In this document: in pieces, positions 9,579 to 32,237 of the stretch | How the letters are laid out: the number at the start of each line of letters is the position of its first letter | Position numbering within the stretch: position 1 is the stretch's first letter | Assembly: GCF_947166265.1 (NCBI RefSeq) | Contig: NZ_CAMVDO010000028.1 | Location: forward strand, 1 to 34,707 | DNA: 34,707 bases | Direction: 5' to 3' | From: an uncultured Fibrobacter sp. | Lineage (GTDB): Bacteria; Fibrobacterota; Fibrobacteria; Fibrobacterales; Fibrobacteraceae | The notes under the pieces: model-generated | Told to the model about the DNA's origin: nothing | The model's database searches: none | The model's input: the letters and a program-made list of their open reading frames with translations, nothing else | Position numbers and translations under genes: made by a program

Positions 9579-9801
9579 GGGGCATATAAGAGTCACAATT
9601 TTCCACTTTTTATACGCCCCGTTCTAGTTTATCTGCAATCAAAAAGCACTATTTCGCAGAGATAAGCAAGGTAACATACGTATAAACAAGCCCGTTTTAA
9701 GACTTTTATATGCCCCCATGCTGCCAAGAACAAGTTAGTTTATTTACAAATTCAAAAAAGGGGCATATAAAAAGCATTCTTTATACAGATTTATATGCCC
9801 G
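9579..9801. repeat. Array of three 42-nt inverted-repeat units
   Basis: This fills the 313-bp gene-free stretch 9529-9841. Unit A (9579-9620) is GGGGCATATAA, 20 nt, TTATACGCCCC. Unit B (9760-9801) is GGGGCATATAA, 20 nt, TTATATGCCCG. Between them TTATATGCCCC (9706-9716) ends a third unit, C (9675-9716), whose left arm is degenerate. All three are 42 nt long. A C10 run follows unit B. No convincing ORF lies in the stretch. The layout is similar to the operators before the ATPase gene at 16748. Confidence 0.7.
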
Positions 9802-16455: not shown

Positions 16456-16586
16456 GGGAGAAAATGTAGAAAGATGCTGTATTTCAGAGGTCAGAACTCG
16501 GATTTCGGAATTTAAAATACGAATAAAAAGCATTAAAAGGGCTGCAAAAAAAGAAAAATCCGCTTTTTCGTAATTATCCGAATCAG

Positions 16587-16605
16587 ATTATCCGTTTTGG
16601 ATAAT
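16587..16605. repeat. ATTATCC inverted repeat
   Basis: ATTATCC-GTTTT-GGATAAT. A further direct copy of ATTATCCG lies at 16573-16580. It lies just upstream of a TTGACA (16613-16618), in the gap between the aminotransferase and the ATPase gene, and may be an operator. Confidence 0.45.
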
Positions 16606-16637
16606 TAATATGTTGACATAACCGAAGCGGGTCACAT

Positions 16638-16730
16638 ATTTCGCCAGAACTCGTATTTAAGTAGACTTTTGGCGAAAAACATACACAATTTTCGCCAAAA
16701 CTCGTATTTTCGTTGACTTTTGGCGAAAAA
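16638..16730. repeat. Two 41-nt inverted-repeat units before the ATPase gene
   Basis: Unit 1 (16638-16678) has arms TTTCGCCA and TGGCGAAA. Unit 2 (16689-16729) has arms TTTTCGCCAAAA and TTTTGGCGAAAA around 17 nt. The two units are direct repeats of each other with a 51-bp period, sharing AACTCGTATTT and GACTTTTGGCGAAAAA. The right arm of unit 2 lies between the -35 and -10 of the predicted promoter, which is how a repressor site would sit. Confidence 0.75.
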
Positions 16731-16741
16731 TATTATAGATT
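16713..16741 (+). promoter_or_regulatory. Candidate promoter of the ATPase gene
   Basis: TTGACT (16713-16718) and TAGATT (16736-16741) with a 17-bp spacer. The predicted start is about 16748, the A of the ATG, so the mRNA may be leaderless, in line with the absence of an RBS. A second candidate is TTGACA (16613) with CATATT (16635). Confidence 0.45.
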
Positions 16742-16747
16742 AACAGT

Positions 16748-18169
16748 ATGAGCATCATTGGAAGAAATACCGAAATTCAGCTGCTGGAGCGCCACGTCGC
16801 CTCTAAAAACGCGGAATTCATCGCCCTATACGGTCGCCGTCGCGTAGGAAAGACATTCCTTATCAACCAGACATTCAAGGACAGATTCGCCTTCTCAATG
16901 ACAGGCGTCTTAGACGGCAAGAAGGACGAACAAATAAGCGCATTCCTAGACGCGATGGACATCTTCGGATATGAAACCAATGAGCGCCCCCAAAATTGGA
17001 TGGAAGCGTTCTCGCAACTACGCAAGGCATTATCAAGCAAAATTTCAAAAGAGTCACCCTGCATCGTTTTCATCGACGAAATTCCAAGCCTTGACACGCA
17101 AGGGTCCGGATTCACAAAAGCCCTCGGACATTTTTGGAACAGTTGGGCCGGGAACCAAGACAACTTCAAACTCATCGTATGCGGTTCGGCAACCTCCTGG
17201 ATGATCAAGAACCTCATTGATAGCAAGGGAGGACTCCACAACAGGATTACACACGAAATAAAGCTTTTGCCCTTTACGCTCAAAGAAACCGAAGAATACC
17301 TGCAGTCCAAAAATTTCACCTGGACCAGGCAAATGATTTTGCAGTCGTACATGTTCACAGGCGGAGTCGCCTATTACCTCAGCCTTTTCGACGAATGCGA
17401 GAGTCTCGCACAAAACATAGACAGGCTCTATTTCTCGGAAAATGGAGAAATGCGCCGCGAGTACAAGCGACTTTTCAAAACACTGTTCAATGCGGCAGAG
17501 CCCTACATGCGAATCGTGGAAACCCTCGCTCAAAAGAAGCAAGGCATGACGCGCAAAGAACTTATCGAAGCTATGAAATCCGAAAAAGGAGGAACGCTCT
17601 CCGAACAATTGCAAAATCTGGTAGAATGCGGTTTTATCCGAAAATACATGGTGCGAGAAAAAAAAGTCATCAAGGAAAACAGCGGAATCTACCAACTCAT
17701 CGACCCATTTACCCTGTTCCACCTATATTTCAATGACAAGGCAAAGGGCGACAGCCGCTTTTTGGAAAACCACATCAACACCCCCGTCATAAACACTTGG
17801 CTAGGGCTTTCGTTTGAAAAAGTCTGCCTGCTCCACGTACAGCAAATCAAGGCCGCGCTCAAGATAGACGGGATTTCGACACAGCAATACTCCTGGCGAA
17901 GCAAAAGCAAAAAGACACCGGCTCAGATAGACCTGATAATCGACCGCGCAGACGGAATGATCAATCTCTGCGAGCTAAAATATTCCGAAACAGATTACGC
18001 CCTTAGCGAGACGGAATACAACAAGATGGAACGCCGTTTTGCCGCATTCCTCAACGAGGCAGAGACACGCAAAGGCATCTTCAAGACGCTCATTACGGCA
18101 AGCCCCTTGAAGAAGAACCAATACTCGGAATCTGTCGCCGTCAAACTGACTGCGGATTGCTTGTTTTAA
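16748..18169 (+). CDS. AAA ATPase with C-terminal PD-(D/E)XK nuclease-like domain
   Basis: 473 residues. The N-terminal P-loop ATPase of the archaeal ATPase/ATPase_2 type has Walker A GRRRVGKT (29-36, Lys35), Walker B CIVFIDEIPSL (Asp110, Glu111) and a sensor-like IVCGSATSWM. A winged-helix region follows (about 255-310, MTRKELIEAM ... LVECGFIRKY). The C-terminus (about 340-473) is a DUF234-like domain with the nuclease core Asp395 and Glu409-Leu-Lys411 (LCELKYSE). The biological role of this family is not established; it is widespread in gut anaerobes and archaea as single genes. Two large inverted-repeat units sit at its promoter and no partner gene is adjacent. Confidence 0.85.
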   Translation: MSIIGRNTEIQLLERHVASKNAEFIALYGRRRVGKTFLINQTFKDRFAFSMTGVLDGKKDEQISAFLDAMDIFGYETNERPQNWMEAFSQLRKALSSKISKESPCIVFIDEIPSLDTQGSGFTKALGHFWNSWAGNQDNFKLIVCGSATSWMIKNLIDSKGGLHNRITHEIKLLPFTLKETEEYLQSKNFTWTRQMILQSYMFTGGVAYYLSLFDECESLAQNIDRLYFSENGEMRREYKRLFKTLFNAAEPYMRIVETLAQKKQGMTRKELIEAMKSEKGGTLSEQLQNLVECGFIRKYMVREKKVIKENSGIYQLIDPFTLFHLYFNDKAKGDSRFLENHINTPVINTWLGLSFEKVCLLHVQQIKAALKIDGISTQQYSWRSKSKKTPAQIDLIIDRADGMINLCELKYSETDYALSETEYNKMERRFAAFLNEAETRKGIFKTLITASPLKKNQYSESVAVKLTADCLF

Positions 18170-18199
18170 GGAATAGCAAACGCCAGCCCATATAGTCTT

Positions 18200-19519
18200 T
18201 TATTCCACTATGTGCCATGTATTTTGAGGATCACCATTCTGGGAACTTTCTTGCATCCATTCACATATATCGAGGAATCCAGCCCCCTCGTATAACCTTA
18301 TACAGGCATCGTTGTTTTCGGATTCAATTTTGCATTTCCAGGAACCTCGAGATTTTTTATTATTCGAAAGAATAATACGCGAATTTGCAGGGCATCCTGC
18401 GATCTTTTTCCTTGTAATCGCAGAAATTCCAACATCATTATTTTGGCGTAACTCTTCTAACACATATCCATCCGACTCTAGTGTATAGAAATCAATCAAT
18501 CTCCATGACCCAAATTCATTCAAGTAACGACGGCGTTCTTTCTGTTGATCAAGATACCTACTAAATTCCGTTTTTAGATAAAAGGTACTGGAATACGCTA
18601 TTTCCCAAAAGAGTGAGTCAGCATTCATCGGTACATTTGCTTCTACGACTGAATCACATTGGCTAAAGAATGGTTTAGCCAACTTTTCACACGATCGATG
18701 CATTTTCTGCACTTTCTTCAATGTGGACGCAAAGCCCTTGTCTGGAGACTTCTCTTCAAGCATTTTTTGTAGTTCTTTGTCCAAACGAATAGATTCATCA
18801 CTTTCACCTATTTCCGCAAGCCCGCAAATTGTAAACATTTCCTCGCTTTCAGAAATAACCCGAAGTTCCCATTTTGTCCGTTGAGGACAGTCTCCCAACA
18901 TTTTCTTGGATTCAAACTGCATCCTGTCCCTAGAAAAATGGAACCTGAAATTTTCACTGTTCGGGACCAAAAATCCAATATCAGCAACATCGCCAAATCT
19001 GCCTTTGGCGGCAAGATAGGTTGCCTGCCGAGCCTTGTATTCTTGGGCAATCAATCCAAGTTCCGAGTAGGAGTTCACAAAATACGATATAAGAATCCAC
19101 ACTAAAACTCCCATGCAGGCTACATATACCAAGGATACAAAGGCAATAAGCAAAGCCACCCATTTCAGCCAAGACACTGGAGCCAAGGGACACCCATCAC
19201 CGTCAATATAGGTTCCCTTTCCTAAGTGGATTAAATCTATCACGCTCCAGACAAACGAGATTATCGACGCAATTCCAGTTAAGGTCAATATCAACTTGAC
19301 TACGCCATGTTTCGTATTTCCACAATAGAAATCATGAGCGCCAAGTAATCCCAAAAGCAGAGCCAATACCGCAGCCACACTGGAATTTCGAGGACCATTT
19401 TTTCCTAAGCCAGCACTATTTGGAGAATCAGGAGAACCAGTTCCCAGCAATTTTGCACCACACCGGTCGCAGAAAAATGCATTTTTAGGGACTTGTTTAC
19501 CGCAGTTATGACAAAACAT
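18200..19519 (-). CDS. Zinc ribbon-TM2 membrane protein with extracytoplasmic domain
   Basis: 439 residues. The N-terminus is a zinc ribbon (C3-HN-C6 and C17-DR-C20), followed by a TM2 domain (about 43-105, two membrane segments with the GLLGAHDFYCGNTKHGVVKL and WSVIDLI motifs). A further membrane segment (about 115-150) leads into SELGLIAQEYKARQATYLAAKGRF, which resembles the helix of pilin-like proteins. The remaining 260 residues are soluble and contain several cysteines; no known domain is recognised. It is the last of three minus-strand genes at 18200-21383 that may form an operon, but the 38-nt gap leaves this open. Confidence 0.7.
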   Translation of the reverse strand: MFCHNCGKQVPKNAFFCDRCGAKLLGTGSPDSPNSAGLGKNGPRNSSVAAVLALLLGLLGAHDFYCGNTKHGVVKLILTLTGIASIISFVWSVIDLIHLGKGTYIDGDGCPLAPVSWLKWVALLIAFVSLVYVACMGVLVWILISYFVNSYSELGLIAQEYKARQATYLAAKGRFGDVADIGFLVPNSENFRFHFSRDRMQFESKKMLGDCPQRTKWELRVISESEEMFTICGLAEIGESDESIRLDKELQKMLEEKSPDKGFASTLKKVQKMHRSCEKLAKPFFSQCDSVVEANVPMNADSLFWEIAYSSTFYLKTEFSRYLDQQKERRRYLNEFGSWRLIDFYTLESDGYVLEELRQNNDVGISAITRKKIAGCPANSRIILSNNKKSRGSWKCKIESENNDACIRLYEGAGFLDICEWMQESSQNGDPQNTWHIVE

Positions 19520-19557
19520 AAACTTTGCGCCTTACGATGATCGGATATACAGAAAAT

Positions 19558-20844
19558 TTACTCTGAAAATGTAAACGGAATCGTAACGGTAGTGTTACCA
19601 GACTTCACCTTGCTGAACTTCCAGCGGCTTACAGCATTCTTGATTTCGTCATCAAATTCGCCGTAACCGGTCGTAGAAGAAGCAATGGAGATGCTGATGA
19701 TTTCGCCACCCGGAGCGATCGTGAACTTCAAGGTAACCTTACCCTGGAAGCCCGGTTTCTTCTTCAGGAACTTGTTGTAGATGTGGCGGAGACCCGGAGT
19801 ACGCTGACGCACAACCTTCATGATGTCTGCAGCGGAACGAGATCCACCACCGGCACCCATGTCGATATCGCGTTCTGACGGGGTCTTGACAGAGCCCTTT
19901 TCCCTGGTAGTGATACCGCCACCGCCGCAAAGGAGGCAAGCGAGTTCCTCATTTTCTTTGTTCTCCTTCTTTTCGGCGTAATCGAGGTTGAAGCCACCGT
20001 CAGCCTTAGGGCGGCTACGGCTCTTACCCGTCGTCTGGAGACCGGCAACGTCCTTCAAAACCTTGTCGATATCCTTAGCGAGCTTCTTAGTGAACTTCGG
20101 ATTCTTCATCAGGTCGTATGCACGAAAAGAAGTGTCCTTCAGGACCCGTCGTCCAAGCAAACCTAACACCAATTTCATTTCCTTTACACCCATTTCATTA
20201 TTATGATCTTCATCAGACGCATAAAAAAATCTCTTGAAGCCAGCCTCATAAATATAATCTACATCATATAACCCAACAAGAAGAATTTTGTCGTCCTTCC
20301 CAGACTTCTTAGCAACAGAATACAGCATCTTGGATTCATTAAACATCACCTCTCCAAATGTCAGCGGAGCGAGCACACTATTCTCAACATCCCAGGCAGA
20401 CAAGGTTCGCGTAGAATTAGAGGCTGCCGTAGAAACCTTGCTGCCGGATTTTGGAGGTTTCAAATCCGTCGGAGGCCGTATGCCATTTTTTCCAAGACCT
20501 TCCGCCGCAAAAAAGTTACCCTCATTATCGACATAGGCACTATCAGGCACTCCTTTTTTGGTGGAATACCATGCCCACAGGATTCGCCCTTCATCTGTCG
20601 GAGTGTTTTTTACGACAGCGACGGCTCTACTATCGCCGTTACCGTTTTCTAAAAATTTTCTATAGTAAACTTTGCAATGATTTCCTGCGGCAAACGAAAA
20701 ACGCAATTCGGGTTTATCATCAGAGCCAACATTTTTGCCATACACTGTAGGCACGTCCTTCCACTCGGCCAACTCTGACCTATAGCAATCATCTGCAAAT
20801 GAAAAACCGCATACCAAAAGCAGCAGTAAAACGTTTTTTTTCAT
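19558..20844 (-). CDS. Secreted protein with AgmX/PglI (TonB-like) C-terminal domain
   Basis: 428 residues. MKKNVLLLLLVCGFSFADD is a signal peptide. The middle contains a CLLCGGGG cluster and glycine/serine-rich linkers. The last 90 residues (from IMKVVRQRTPGLRHIYNKFL to the C-terminus) form a TonB/AgmX-type domain: FQGKVTLKFTIAPGGEI, then W-K-F near the end (SRWKFSKVKSG). This domain class is found in Myxococcus gliding proteins and is frequent in Fibrobacter. I chose the ATG at 20844, preceded by GAGG 5 nt away, over an upstream GTG overlapping the previous gene, because only this start gives a signal peptide at the N-terminus. Confidence 0.75.
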   Translation of the reverse strand: MKKNVLLLLLVCGFSFADDCYRSELAEWKDVPTVYGKNVGSDDKPELRFSFAAGNHCKVYYRKFLENGNGDSRAVAVVKNTPTDEGRILWAWYSTKKGVPDSAYVDNEGNFFAAEGLGKNGIRPPTDLKPPKSGSKVSTAASNSTRTLSAWDVENSVLAPLTFGEVMFNESKMLYSVAKKSGKDDKILLVGLYDVDYIYEAGFKRFFYASDEDHNNEMGVKEMKLVLGLLGRRVLKDTSFRAYDLMKNPKFTKKLAKDIDKVLKDVAGLQTTGKSRSRPKADGGFNLDYAEKKENKENEELACLLCGGGGITTREKGSVKTPSERDIDMGAGGGSRSAADIMKVVRQRTPGLRHIYNKFLKKKPGFQGKVTLKFTIAPGGEIISISIASSTTGYGEFDDEIKNAVSRWKFSKVKSGNTTVTIPFTFSE

Positions 20845-20879
20845 AAATCCTCTTTCCTGAATTACGTTGTTTGAAATTT

Positions 20880-21383
20880 TCACTTCGTTTCACTAGCATC
20901 AAGCAACAGTTTATAAGGATGAGCATCCCTATTCCCCTTAACAACATCGTCTAACAGGAACTTCAGATATTCCTGGATTTCATCATTTTTAAGGGAATGT
21001 TCTAAAACATAGTCATAGAATTGGAAATATTTCTCACTGATAATTTTTTTCTTTTTTAGCAGCAAAAAATTAGAGAGGGTCGTGAGTGCATAATCCGTTT
21101 TTCTTTCATTTTCAGGATTATTAAAAACGCCAACCCTTTTTCCGTTTTCACAAAAAACGGAGAAACCGACGCTACCCTCGCGTTCAATCATATGGATGAA
21201 GTCCGCAATATCCTTGTCCTTCATTATGGAACTCGAAAATTTTTCCGTGTATTTTATCTGGAGTTGCTTTTTTTGTCCAATCCACTGTTGTATGGCAAAG
21301 ACAAATCCCGCTATGACCGCTATTTTTTCACCATAGTCAAGGAACAACGGAAAACAATCCTTGCAACAATTCATAAAATTCAT
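20880..21383 (-). CDS. Small membrane-anchored hypothetical protein
   Basis: 167 residues; family not recognised. One membrane segment near the start (about 12-33, YGEKIAVIAGFVFAIQQWIG) is followed by a helical, charged cytoplasmic part ending LLLDASETK. This layout resembles small DUF4760-type proteins but I cannot confirm that. The ATG at 21383 has AGGA 7 nt upstream; a GTG six bases earlier is less likely. It is the first gene of the three-gene minus-strand group and ends 35 nt before the AgmX-type gene. Confidence 0.6.
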   Translation of the reverse strand: MNFMNCCKDCFPLFLDYGEKIAVIAGFVFAIQQWIGQKKQLQIKYTEKFSSSIMKDKDIADFIHMIEREGSVGFSVFCENGKRVGVFNNPENERKTDYALTTLSNFLLLKKKKIISEKYFQFYDYVLEHSLKNDEIQEYLKFLLDDVVKGNRDAHPYKLLLDASETK

Positions 21384-21417
21384 CAGCACATCCTATAATG
21401 TTAATTTTCTTACACCA

Positions 21418-21444
21418 AATGTAAACAAAAAAAAACAATGTCAA
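21418..21444 (-). promoter_or_regulatory. Candidate promoter of the 18200-21383 gene group
   Basis: Minus-strand -35 TTGACA (plus 21439-21444) with a possible -10 TACATT (plus 21418-21423) at a short 15-bp spacing. The -35 sits in AAACACTTGACATT, nearly the same as at 1066-1079, with A/T tracts upstream. Confidence 0.4.
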
Positions 21445-21522
21445 GTGTTTTTGCGAAAAAAGCCTTTTTTTGGCGAAATTTTTACAAAAAGAGACAGCGC
21501 GAGGGTCTCAAAAAGCCAAATG

Positions 21523-21570
21523 TTGGAAAAGGCAACAAAAATGCCTAAAATTATATTGGAAAAGGTAACA
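21523..21570 (+). repeat. Direct repeat of TTGGAAAAGGyAACA
   Basis: TTGGAAAAGGCAACA (21523-21537) and TTGGAAAAGGTAACA (21556-21570), 33 bp apart, three helical turns, in the AT-rich 283-bp gap before the radical SAM gene. They may be a regulatory site. Nothing else definite is seen in the gap. Confidence 0.4.
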
Positions 21571-21666
21571 CAATTTACTACAAAGTAATAAAAATATGGT
21601 GTTTTTGATTAAAAATCAACGAAAATGAGATTTTAGTCAAAATCAAATTTTTTCCTTAGATCAAAT

Positions 21667-24000
21667 ATGGATTGCCGCGTCGCCTACGGCTCCTCGCAAC
21701 GACTTAAAAGCTTATTTTCTAAATTACCTCTTATGTACGATCCGCGCTTTTTACCCATCTGCAAAGAAGACCTGGAGGAACTCGGCTGGGACTATGTCGA
21801 TGTGATTATCATTAGCGCGGACGCCTACGTGGACCACCCTTGCTTTGGGCATGCCGTGGTCGGTCGCCTTTTCGAGCATGAAGGCCTGCGCGTAGCAATC
21901 CTTCCGCAGCCGAACTGGCGCGATGACTTGCGCGACTTTAAGAAGCTGGGCCGCCCGCGAATGTTCTTCGCGATTTCGAGCGGCATGGATTCCATGGTGA
22001 ACCACTACACCGCCGCCAAGCGCCTCCGCAGCGACGACGCCTTTACGCCCGGCAACAAGGCAGGGTTCCGCCCGGATTACGCAACTTACACCTACGCGAA
22101 GATTTTAAAGAAGCTCTACCCCGATGTTCCGCTGCTGATTGGCGGACTTGAATCGAGCCTGCGCCGCGTGACGCATTACGACTACTGGAGCGACAGACTT
22201 AAGCCTAGCATCCTTTTCGATACGCAAGCCGACATTCTCGTGTACGGCATGGGCGAAAAACCGCTCAAGGAAATCGTGCGACTCCTGAAGAAAGGCGTAC
22301 CGTTCTCCAGTTTGCATTCCGTGCCGCAAACAGCCTACCTCGCGCCCAAGGGACAAATTCCTACGACCAAGCAGTGGGAAGACCTGCGCCTTTATAGTTA
22401 CGAGGAATGCCTCGCCAACAAACGCAATCAAATCGAGAACTGCCGCAGGGTGGACATCGAATGCAACAAGTGGTTCCAGCGCCGCATCCTGCAAGATGTC
22501 GCGGAACAGACCGTGGTAATTAACCCCGCGTACCCGCCGCTCGAATACGGCGAACTCGACGAAAGTTTTGAATACCCCTACGCCCGCGAACCGCACCCGC
22601 GTTACAGAAAGCGCGGCAACGTGCCTGCGTTCGACATGATCAAGTTCAGCATCAACACTCACCGAGGCTGTTTTGGCGGTTGCAGTTTTTGCGCCATCAA
22701 CGCACACCAGGGCAAATTCATCGCGAGCCGTAGCCGCGAAAGCATTCTGCGCGAAGTCGATTTGATTACGAAGATGGACGGATTCGCCGGCACCATCACC
22801 GATTTGGGCGGCCCGAGCGCCAATATGTACAACATGCGTGGCCGCGACCCGAGCCGTTGCCAAAAGTGCGCACGCCCCAGTTGCCTCACGCCGAAAGTCT
22901 GCGACAACATGGACACGCATCACCACGAGCTCCTGGAACTTTACCGCGAAGTGCGCAACCACCCGAAGGTGAAGCACCTGTTCATTGGAAGCGGCGTGCG
23001 TTACGACATGCTGCTGCAAGAAACCGACGACAAAGAACTGATCCGCGACCACGAAGAATACGCCCGCGAACTCATCGACTACCATGTGAGCGGGCGCCTG
23101 AAGGTGGCCCCGGAACATACCAGCGACGCAGTCCTTAAGCTGATGCGCAAGCCGAGCTTTACGCTGTTCCATAAGTTCAAGGAATTCTTCGACGACGAAT
23201 GCAAGCGCATCGGCAAAAAACAGCAGATTATCCCCTACTTTATCAGTAGCCATCCGGGCTGTACCGAAGCCGACATGGCGGAACTGGCCCTGGAGACAAA
23301 GCAGTTGGGGTTCCAGCTGGAACAGGTTCAGGACTTTACGCCTACGCCCATGACCATCGCGACGGAGATGTTCTATTCCGAAATGACTCCCGATGGAAAG
23401 CCTCTTTACGTGGCGAAAACTCCGGAGCAAAAGAAAAGCCAAAGGCAATTCTTCTTCTGGTACATTCCGGAGAACCGCCCGCAGATCCGCGCCACCCTGG
23501 AGCGCCTCAAGCTGGGCAAGATCGGGCGCCTGCTCTTAAGCCGCAGCGCAAAGGCCGAAGGCAAGGAATTCTTCCCGAGCAAGGAGCGCGAAGAAAACGA
23601 AGTCTACCGCCAGCGCGAACAGCAGAAACGCGAGCAACGGGCCGTCACCATCGTGCCGCAGAAATCCGGCGACAAGGGCCGCTGGGAAAACTCCGCCCGC
23701 AAGGAACGCCGCGCCGCATTATTCGGAAACAATGGAAGTGGCGAGCCGCGCAACGACAGGCGCGAAGGTCACCGCGACTTCCGTGACAACAACCGCAACA
23801 GCAATTTCGGCAACGGTGAGCGCAAGAGTTTCCACAGCGACCGCAAATTCAACCGCGATCAGAATCGCGACTCGCAAAGCAATCGGAATTTCCGCGACAA
23901 CCGCAACAACCAGCGCGGCAACAACCAGCGCGGAGGCAATTCAAGCGGCGGCAAGAACAATTCGCCGGTGCAGTTCACCTCGTTCAAACGAGGCCGCTGA
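21667..24000 (+). CDS. YgiQ-family radical SAM protein with RN-rich tail
   Basis: A 777-residue UPF0313/YgiQ protein of unknown substrate. The N-terminal domain has the family motifs ADAYVDHPCFGHAVVGRLFE and SSGMDSMVNHYTA; the radical SAM domain has the cluster motif C335-FGG-C339-SF-C342 in THRGCFGGCSFCAI. FYSEMTPDGKPLYVAKTPEQKKSQRQ near residue 575 is the usual C-terminal part. The final 100 or so residues are a disordered tail rich in Arg, Asn, Gly and Ser (NNQRGGN-type repeats) that looks like an RNA-binding extension. Family members often start near M23 (MYDPRFLP); neither start has an RBS. The terminator at 24051 ends the unit. Confidence 0.9.
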   Translation: MDCRVAYGSSQRLKSLFSKLPLMYDPRFLPICKEDLEELGWDYVDVIIISADAYVDHPCFGHAVVGRLFEHEGLRVAILPQPNWRDDLRDFKKLGRPRMFFAISSGMDSMVNHYTAAKRLRSDDAFTPGNKAGFRPDYATYTYAKILKKLYPDVPLLIGGLESSLRRVTHYDYWSDRLKPSILFDTQADILVYGMGEKPLKEIVRLLKKGVPFSSLHSVPQTAYLAPKGQIPTTKQWEDLRLYSYEECLANKRNQIENCRRVDIECNKWFQRRILQDVAEQTVVINPAYPPLEYGELDESFEYPYAREPHPRYRKRGNVPAFDMIKFSINTHRGCFGGCSFCAINAHQGKFIASRSRESILREVDLITKMDGFAGTITDLGGPSANMYNMRGRDPSRCQKCARPSCLTPKVCDNMDTHHHELLELYREVRNHPKVKHLFIGSGVRYDMLLQETDDKELIRDHEEYARELIDYHVSGRLKVAPEHTSDAVLKLMRKPSFTLFHKFKEFFDDECKRIGKKQQIIPYFISSHPGCTEADMAELALETKQLGFQLEQVQDFTPTPMTIATEMFYSEMTPDGKPLYVAKTPEQKKSQRQFFFWYIPENRPQIRATLERLKLGKIGRLLLSRSAKAEGKEFFPSKEREENEVYRQREQQKREQRAVTIVPQKSGDKGRWENSARKERRAALFGNNGSGEPRNDRREGHRDFRDNNRNSNFGNGERKSFHSDRKFNRDQNRDSQSNRNFRDNRNNQRGNNQRGGNSSGGKNNSPVQFTSFKRGR

Positions 24001-31103: not shown

Positions 31104-32237
31104 ATGTACACGCAAAAGAAAAAATGTGTTGATCCAATTTTAGAGCTGCTAGGACTCGGACATTTATATCATGGCAAGCATCCGCTAGTATGGATTCCAG
31201 ACTTATACCCAAAAGACAAAGAAACCTTGAAGCAGCCGACCATAACGGAGCATGCAAAGCCAAGTAATCCAGACTCAAATTGCGTTCGTGAAAAAAATGC
31301 CCCTTATGGCGTGGGACACAAATCAAACGAACCAGAAGTAAACGAAGAAGTGGACCTTTCCCAGTATTTCGTTGAAGCCGGCGAGGAAGGACCATACGCA
31401 AGCCTTTTGACAGACATTACGTTCAAAAAAGCCTTTTCACCCGACACGGAGCAAGGGAAAGCAAATCTTTTGAACCTGCTGAACGACATGCTCAAAGGCC
31501 AAATCAAGCATCGCATCACCGACGTGGCCTCGCAACAATCAGAGTTGAATGATTCTGGAAGCAAGGAATCGAAGACCTCCATTTTTGATTTACACTGCCG
31601 AGACGAAAGGAACGAACAAATCGATGTGGAAGTACAAATCCGTAAAAAGAAGAACTTCCTGAAAAGACTCGTTTTCTATTCAAGCCAAATGATCGTGCAA
31701 CAAGGTTTGCCTGGCCGCAAGTGGAACTACAATGTCAAGCCGTCTTTTATTATCGCGATTACAAAGCACAAAATATTCAAGAAAGACAATCTGCCGATAC
31801 ACCGAGCCGGCATCTGGGATTACACTACGGGGAAGCAACTAGTTGATTGCATGAACTTCACTATCGTAGAATTGCCGAAAATCAAGAAAAAGATCAATAA
31901 TAGGGATTCAGAAGTTACCAAGTGGATGTTCACCCTACGCTATTTGAACAATCTCAAGGGTCTGCCACCAGCCTTAAACATGGGAAAGTTCAAGGGGTTG
32001 CTTGAATTCGCCAAAATATCTAGATTCAGTAAAGAAGAACTTGAAAGGTACAGGTACGCTATGCACATGGAATGGGACGACTACGCCGAGGAAGAAGCCT
32101 TTATTGAGGATCATCCTAAGTTCATCAAGAAGATCGAAAAAGAAGCTGTGGCAAAAACAATCCGAACAATAGAGCGGATGCTTAAAAAGGGTGCGTCTAT
32201 GGAAAAAATCCGCACTTCTTTTGGTGTAGCTAAATAA
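31104..32237 (+). CDS. Rpn-family PD-(D/E)XK nuclease (putative transposase) with N-terminal extension
   Basis: 377 residues. About residues 100-300 match the PD-(D/E)XK nuclease family transposase / Rpn family: LLTDITFKKAF start, Asp162 in FDLHC, Glu176-Val-Gln178 (IDVEVQIRKKKNFLKRLVFYSSQMI core, with Gln in place of Lys as is usual), and a C-terminal helix KKGASMEKIRTSFG. Rpn proteins of E. coli promote RecA-independent recombination. The first 95 residues are unusual for the family and match nothing I know. AAGGA lies 7 nt before the ATG. No terminal inverted repeats or target duplications were found, so it is probably not a complete transposon. Confidence 0.85.
   Translation: MYTQKKKCVDPILELLGLGHLYHGKHPLVWIPDLYPKDKETLKQPTITEHAKPSNPDSNCVREKNAPYGVGHKSNEPEVNEEVDLSQYFVEAGEEGPYASLLTDITFKKAFSPDTEQGKANLLNLLNDMLKGQIKHRITDVASQQSELNDSGSKESKTSIFDLHCRDERNEQIDVEVQIRKKKNFLKRLVFYSSQMIVQQGLPGRKWNYNVKPSFIIAITKHKIFKKDNLPIHRAGIWDYTTGKQLVDCMNFTIVELPKIKKKINNRDSEVTKWMFTLRYLNNLKGLPPALNMGKFKGLLEFAKISRFSKEELERYRYAMHMEWDDYAEEEAFIEDHPKFIKKIEKEAVAKTIRTIERMLKKGASMEKIRTSFGVAK

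Follow-up and report, generated by a model that had tools for sequence, protein, structure and literature searches.

The analysed stretch of DNA, referred to as the window, comprises 34,707 nt (positions 1-34,707 of the Fibrobacter sp. contig NZ_CAMVDO010000028.1) and contains a gene for a predicted ATPase-nuclease that is preceded by two inverted-repeat units. The coordinates of the units, the promoter and the deduced protein domains are compiled in Table 1.

Table 1. Features of the ATPase-nuclease locus, numbered by position in the window.
Feature	Position	Strand	Characteristics and evidence
Inverted-repeat unit 1	16639-16677	.	Half-sites 16639-16652 and 16664-16677; conserved in relatives
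Inverted-repeat unit 2	16689-16729	.	Half-sites 16689-16703 and 16715-16729; overlaps the promoter; conserved in relatives
Predicted promoter	16713-16741	+	-35 TTGACT (16713-16718), 17-nt spacer, -10 TAGATT (16736-16741); sequence, same layout in relatives
PDC-S27-type gene, 473 aa, probably leaderless	16748-18169	+	PADLOC PDC-S27 7.6e-184; ATPase_2 5.5e-13; AF2 model
Predicted STAND/AAA ATPase domain, residues 1-232	16748-17443	+	Invariant G29RRRxGK35 and D110-E111; 2qen, 2fna
Predicted winged helix domain, residues 236-318	17453-17701	+	Profile matches, AF2 model
Predicted turn and recognition helix, residues 276-294	17573-17629	+	AF2 model; residue 280 at 17585-17587
Predicted PD-(D/E)XK nuclease domain, residues 330-473	17735-18166	+	Invariant E357, D395 and E409-x-K411

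The two units follow each other with a start-to-start distance of 51 bp and are 86% identical over 50 nt. The arms of unit 2, TTTTCGCCAAAACTC and GACTTTTGGCGAAAA, are separated by a gap of 11 nt and are 93% complementary. A preliminary description of this DNA had reported two units at this period, the second of them over the promoter of the ATPase gene, and the coordinates, the layout and a shuffle test agree with that report; the arm quoted there, TTTTCGCCAAAA, is exact in unit 2 and not in unit 1, where the left arm is imperfect (ATTTCGCCAGAACTC). The inverted-repeat score of the window was 12.5, compared with a mean of 6.8 and a maximum of 10 in 20 dinucleotide shuffles. The units are conserved in the eight closest relatives, one of which (L013) is left-truncated, and they are still present in several of these relatives that have different flanking DNA. 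The ATTATCC inverted repeat that had been described further upstream exists at 16571-16607 and lies outside the region common to the relatives. Inspection of the sequence indicated that the right half-site of unit 2 covers part of the -35 element and of the spacer to the -10 element of the predicted promoter, which is a good sigma-70-like match. Since the expected transcription start coincides with the ATG at 16748, the mRNA of the ATPase-nuclease gene is probably leaderless and would contain neither unit.

With respect to the deduced protein, the PADLOC profile PDC-S27 matches practically the entire sequence (residues 2-473, 610 bits, 7.6e-184) and assigns it to this protein family. The Pfam profile ATPase_2 scored above its cut-off (49.7 versus 33.2 bits), and the profile DUF234 remained below its curated cut-off (17 versus 22.5 bits). 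The AlphaFold2 model of the whole protein (pLDDT 91.4) resembled best the structures 2qen (Z 20.5) and 2fna (Z 19.3) of Pab2304/Sso1545, followed by CED-4 and Orc1/Cdc6 (2qby, Z 14.4). The alignment with 2qen and 2fna is confined to residues 1-328; the ATPase and winged helix fold is alike in these proteins, whereas the window protein adds a nuclease domain. The C-terminal domain modelled alone (pLDDT 93.1) matched 1y88 (Z 8.7) and EndoMS (Z 8.6), and its residues E357, D395, E409 and K411 occur without exception in two alignments. The Walker A motif and the D110-E111 pair of the ATPase domain are likewise invariant, and the recognition helix of the winged helix domain spans residues 282-294 of the model. 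Profiles, fold matches and invariant residues agree with the earlier description of a P-loop ATPase with a Glu-x-Lys nuclease core, and the protein is predicted to consist of a STAND ATPase of the Pab2304/Sso1545 type, a winged helix domain and a putative PD-(D/E)XK nuclease.

The PDC-S27 family, which is among the most abundant candidate defence families, has been published as an ATPase joined to a PD-(D/E)XK domain that is abundant in archaea and bacteria, most PDCs still awaiting experimental validation (PMC12988326). In addition, the fusion of an AAA+ ATPase to HTH and RecB nuclease domains was assigned a likely role in defence by Makarova et al. 2014 (PMC4158269). The open-access papers searched contained no experimental test of PDC-S27, anti-phage activity included, and did not describe arrays at the promoters of this family, a code of recognition or the limits of a cassette. 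We put the chances that the ATPase-nuclease family serves in defence as evenly balanced.

Homologs of the window protein were detected in 47 of the 80 genomes of the genus. The 93 members examined from the genus form 24 clusters at 60% identity, most of which possess arms of their own, and similar arms were found mainly between proteins that are at least 60% identical. Homologs outside the genus originate mostly from Bacteroidales, but also from Clostridia, Lentisphaerae and others, and have different arms again. A significant upstream inverted repeat, defined as a score above all 19 shuffles, was present in 137 of 178 homologs from several phyla, with approximately 9 expected. A score of at least 9.5 was reached by 137 genes of this set; shuffles gave about 3 such scores, the coding control gave 0, and the far-upstream control 3 of 159. 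The validation with 112 further homologs yielded 87 significant cases (5.6 expected; coding control 0). The repeats are thus not absent from other members of the family, about a quarter of which are without a detected inverted repeat. For DUF4143, a further ATPase family that is rich in paralogs in the same genomes, the threshold was attained in just 3 of 28 cases. Moreover, a search of the 80 genomes with the array motif of the window cluster yielded hits in ten genomes, nine of them at the gene, and the motif of a second cluster was present in four genomes, three times at the gene; the remaining genome was in each case one with the array alone (G011, G061). This is the opposite of repeats that occur mostly without the gene. 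Arrays are general in the family, with arms that differ by subfamily and a shared geometry. Paralogs in the same genome share arms in 2.3% of cases, compared with 4.4% expected (P 0.021), and the 12 paralogs analysed in genome G196 have 12 different arms. In this genome and two others (G174, G209), the family profile finds 23-24 matches each. A distant cluster (L004, L092-L094) carries tandem palindromes of the TAACTCTTGAGTAAAT type in place of the usual array, with a period of approximately 15-16 bp and a location between the -10 element and the start codon.

Along the arrays, half-sites with the consensus TtNGC[C/G/T][A/G]AA[A/T]C alternate in orientation. Half-sites of the same orientation are 51-54 bp apart, the interval from 50 to 54 bp comprising 77 pairs compared with 1.8 expected, and smaller peaks occur at 60-64, 70-74 and 80-84 bp. 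With these steps of approximately 10.5 bp, found across arms of unrelated sequence, the half-sites come to lie on one face of the DNA helix, as in an array of a DNA-bound protein. The longest arrays contain 10 half-sites, and in all representatives listed no more than 90 bp separate the start codon from the end of the last half-site detected. The array located at 9579-9801 of the window (GGGGCATATAA) is built from grouped GGGGC(A/G)TATAA units, each an inverted repeat about 41 bp long; such groups also occur in L095-L104, and their spacings of 64, 85, 95 and 106 bp are helical as well. These units are dispersed in intergenic regions of 10 of the 80 genus genomes, including one (G003) without a homolog of the window protein. 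The array exists as described before, but its assignment to the same phenomenon, and hence to the ATPase family, was rejected on these grounds.

The covariation of proteins and arms was analysed as the mutual information that protein columns share with the bases of the half-site, in a discovery set of 57 non-redundant members and a replication set of 31 members, none of which reaches 60% identity to any member of the first set. The pair of half-site base 6 and residue 280, located at the beginning of the recognition helix, tops the discovery set (Z 6.8) and ranks second in the replication set (Z 5.1), in which a nuclease-domain pair, residue 358 and base 8 (Z 7.9), ranks above this pre-specified pair. 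In the combined sets, the pair of residue 280 and base 6 is the first of 2,889 pairs (Z 11.1; null maximum 6.6 at 95%). Members with Asp280 have predominantly G at base 6 (G 17, T 6, C 7), those with Asn280 predominantly T (T 17, G 3, C 2), and those with other residues predominantly C (C 26, G 6, T 4). The association (chi-square 49, p 5e-10 at the 60% identity cut) is weaker at a cut of 50% (n=32, p 0.023), and the covariation p-values are optimistic because the permutations ignore phylogeny. Additionally, two orthologs with matching flanks (L338 and L193) are 92% identical and differ both in their arms, which are switched from ATCC to AGCT, and in residues 278-282; the changes affect 6 of 19 positions of the recognition segment and 30 of 454 elsewhere (p 0.0017). 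The covariation of arms with protein domains that had been considered before was replicated for residue 280, and none of the Mantel tests of whole-domain protein distance against arm distance was significant.

The presence of arrays throughout the family, their helical phasing, the replicated covariation at residue 280 and the switch between the two orthologs argue for the earlier proposal that each ATPase reads its own arms, and we consider it very probable that each protein of the family binds them. Autoregulation, which gives the best fit among the three uses proposed for the arrays (autoregulation, DNA cleavage and mobility), is probably their main role. The inverted-repeat units would then form the protein's own operator array, in which each half-site is read by the winged helix of the ATPase-nuclease, and dimers or higher oligomers joined via the STAND ATPase might align on the alternating half-sites. 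These half-sites, which recur at intervals of roughly five helical turns, lie over the -35 and -10 elements of the gene, and binding to the array would most likely repress the gene itself. Within this model, the PD-(D/E)XK domain is predicted to act as effector in defence. The joint divergence of recognition helix and arms among paralogs suggests a separate address for each copy. The predicted DNA ligand of each member can be read from its own promoter, residue 280 predicting one base, and the family, of which a single genome may contain as many as 24 matches, represents a natural laboratory for the insulation of paralogous regulators. The arrays also offer a way into the question of how a STAND ATPase-nuclease is restrained.

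The genes of Orc1/Cdc6 initiators adjoin their own arrays of ORB repeats. Orc1/Cdc6 is an AAA ATPase with a winged helix, and the likeness to the window protein is one of fold; the systems differ in that the arrays described here overlap the promoter and the protein has a nuclease domain. In RAYT/REPIN systems, every gene is accompanied by a palindromic repeat of its own, which may lie on either or both sides of it, and the RAYTs are HUH transposases whose repeats occur in many dispersed copies. The genes of the family studied here also have private palindromic repeats, but encode a predicted PD-(D/E)XK domain instead of an HUH domain, and the two array motifs that were searched are nearly confined to the gene.

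A comparison of members at different loci indicated that similarity stops close to the outer array boundary, at a median of 11 bp inside it. In cluster 1, the limit lies at -108 to -111 and the array edge at -108 to -113. On the 3' side, similarity ends at the stop codon or, where present, at a 3' unit. For 24 of 177 members (5.7 expected), an unmasked scan detected a match to the array arms on the 3' side of the gene that surpassed all 30 shuffles, a feature that plain autoregulation has no need of; among the 3' arm units read by eye, direct copies predominate. With arrays masked, direct repeats of 26-173 bp flank the cassette in 36 of 295 members, related members being counted separately, and inverted ones in a single member (p 5.5e-10). 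Similarity boundaries and flanking direct repeats point to movement of the cassette, as envisaged earlier, and array and gene travel together as a single-gene cassette. The flanking direct repeats are of variable length, with differences of up to 28%, and several of them consist of the end of a gene or a fragment of a paralog; they are therefore taken as signs of movement or recombination rather than of a particular mechanism, without the claim that all of them are footprints of transposition. A clean empty site, carrying the repeat in one copy, was found neither for the window gene nor for L027, in which the 153-bp flanking repeat lies within a region of related repeats. The window gene is part of a variable island of 5.2 kb, as deduced from relatives that lack all of 16475-21710, so that a precise cassette junction is not visible there.

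The same boundaries, the bias towards direct flanking repeats, the arm units placed as direct repeats immediately 3' of the gene in some members and the two gene-less arrays are also in favour of a one-gene mobile element with self-driven insertion or homing, of which the arrays would be the recombination or end sites and for which the promoter overlap would be secondary. We regard this as unlikely, since most members, including that of the window, have no right-end unit, the flanking repeats in their variable length, divergence and composition do not resemble the target duplications of transposases, a clean single-copy empty site was not found among the sites examined, and the array of G061 sits where gene-bearing relatives have theirs, which fits gene loss. 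A mobile one-gene cassette with an evolvable address, in which the array would be recognised for autoregulation while the nuclease promotes insertion or homing at the same site and helix and address co-evolve, is quite unlikely in our judgement; its arrays would be recognised at the left edge and, in some members, also at the right edge. A transposon with two inverted ends was rejected because the array is left-only in most members, the window's included, and the 3' units are direct. The similarity that ends at the stop codon or 3' unit of a single-gene cassette led to rejection of a two-gene toxin-antitoxin system, and a CRISPR array was dismissed in view of two or few palindromic units over a promoter and of the lack of a cas gene, by eye, among the ORFs of the window.

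The arrays might also act as sensor or antidote, the nuclease being inactive while docked and freed on loss or degradation of the array or on competition for it, for example during phage infection. The fusion of a STAND-type ATPase to a nuclease domain, the presence of up to 10 half-sites, which is beyond the needs of simple repression, and the prediction of the family as defence (PMC12988326) would fit such a function; docking and autoregulation cannot be separated by sequence, and we rate the sensor as decidedly improbable. Hairpins can form from the repeats, which could thus work at the RNA level as attenuator or mRNA structure, but in the window and the other members of its cluster the -10 element follows the units, which are hence outside the mRNA, and a protein bound to DNA, unlike RNA, would be expected to give the helical phasing seen between half-sites of the same orientation; this reading was rejected as extremely improbable. 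The geometry taken alone is compatible with binding by a separate host regulator. The probability of such a regulator appears negligible, as the arms change between paralogs of one genome (12 arms for 12 paralogs in G196) and covary with the recognition helix of the ATPase-nuclease itself, and as gene and array move jointly.

Several further observations concern individual members and the surroundings of the window gene. One homolog (L187:3001-4410) is interrupted by an internal stop codon, and close homologs are located on contigs of the viral collection (L225-L233). The cassette of L423 lies inside another gene, presumably comM, and is flanked by a 173-bp repeat. The island at 16475-21710 of the window also contains a TM2/zinc-ribbon gene, a TonB_C gene and a gene of 169 aa without a Pfam match, and a gene for a PD-(D/E)XK nuclease family transposase (PDDEXK_2, 7.4e-39) is located at 31104-32237.
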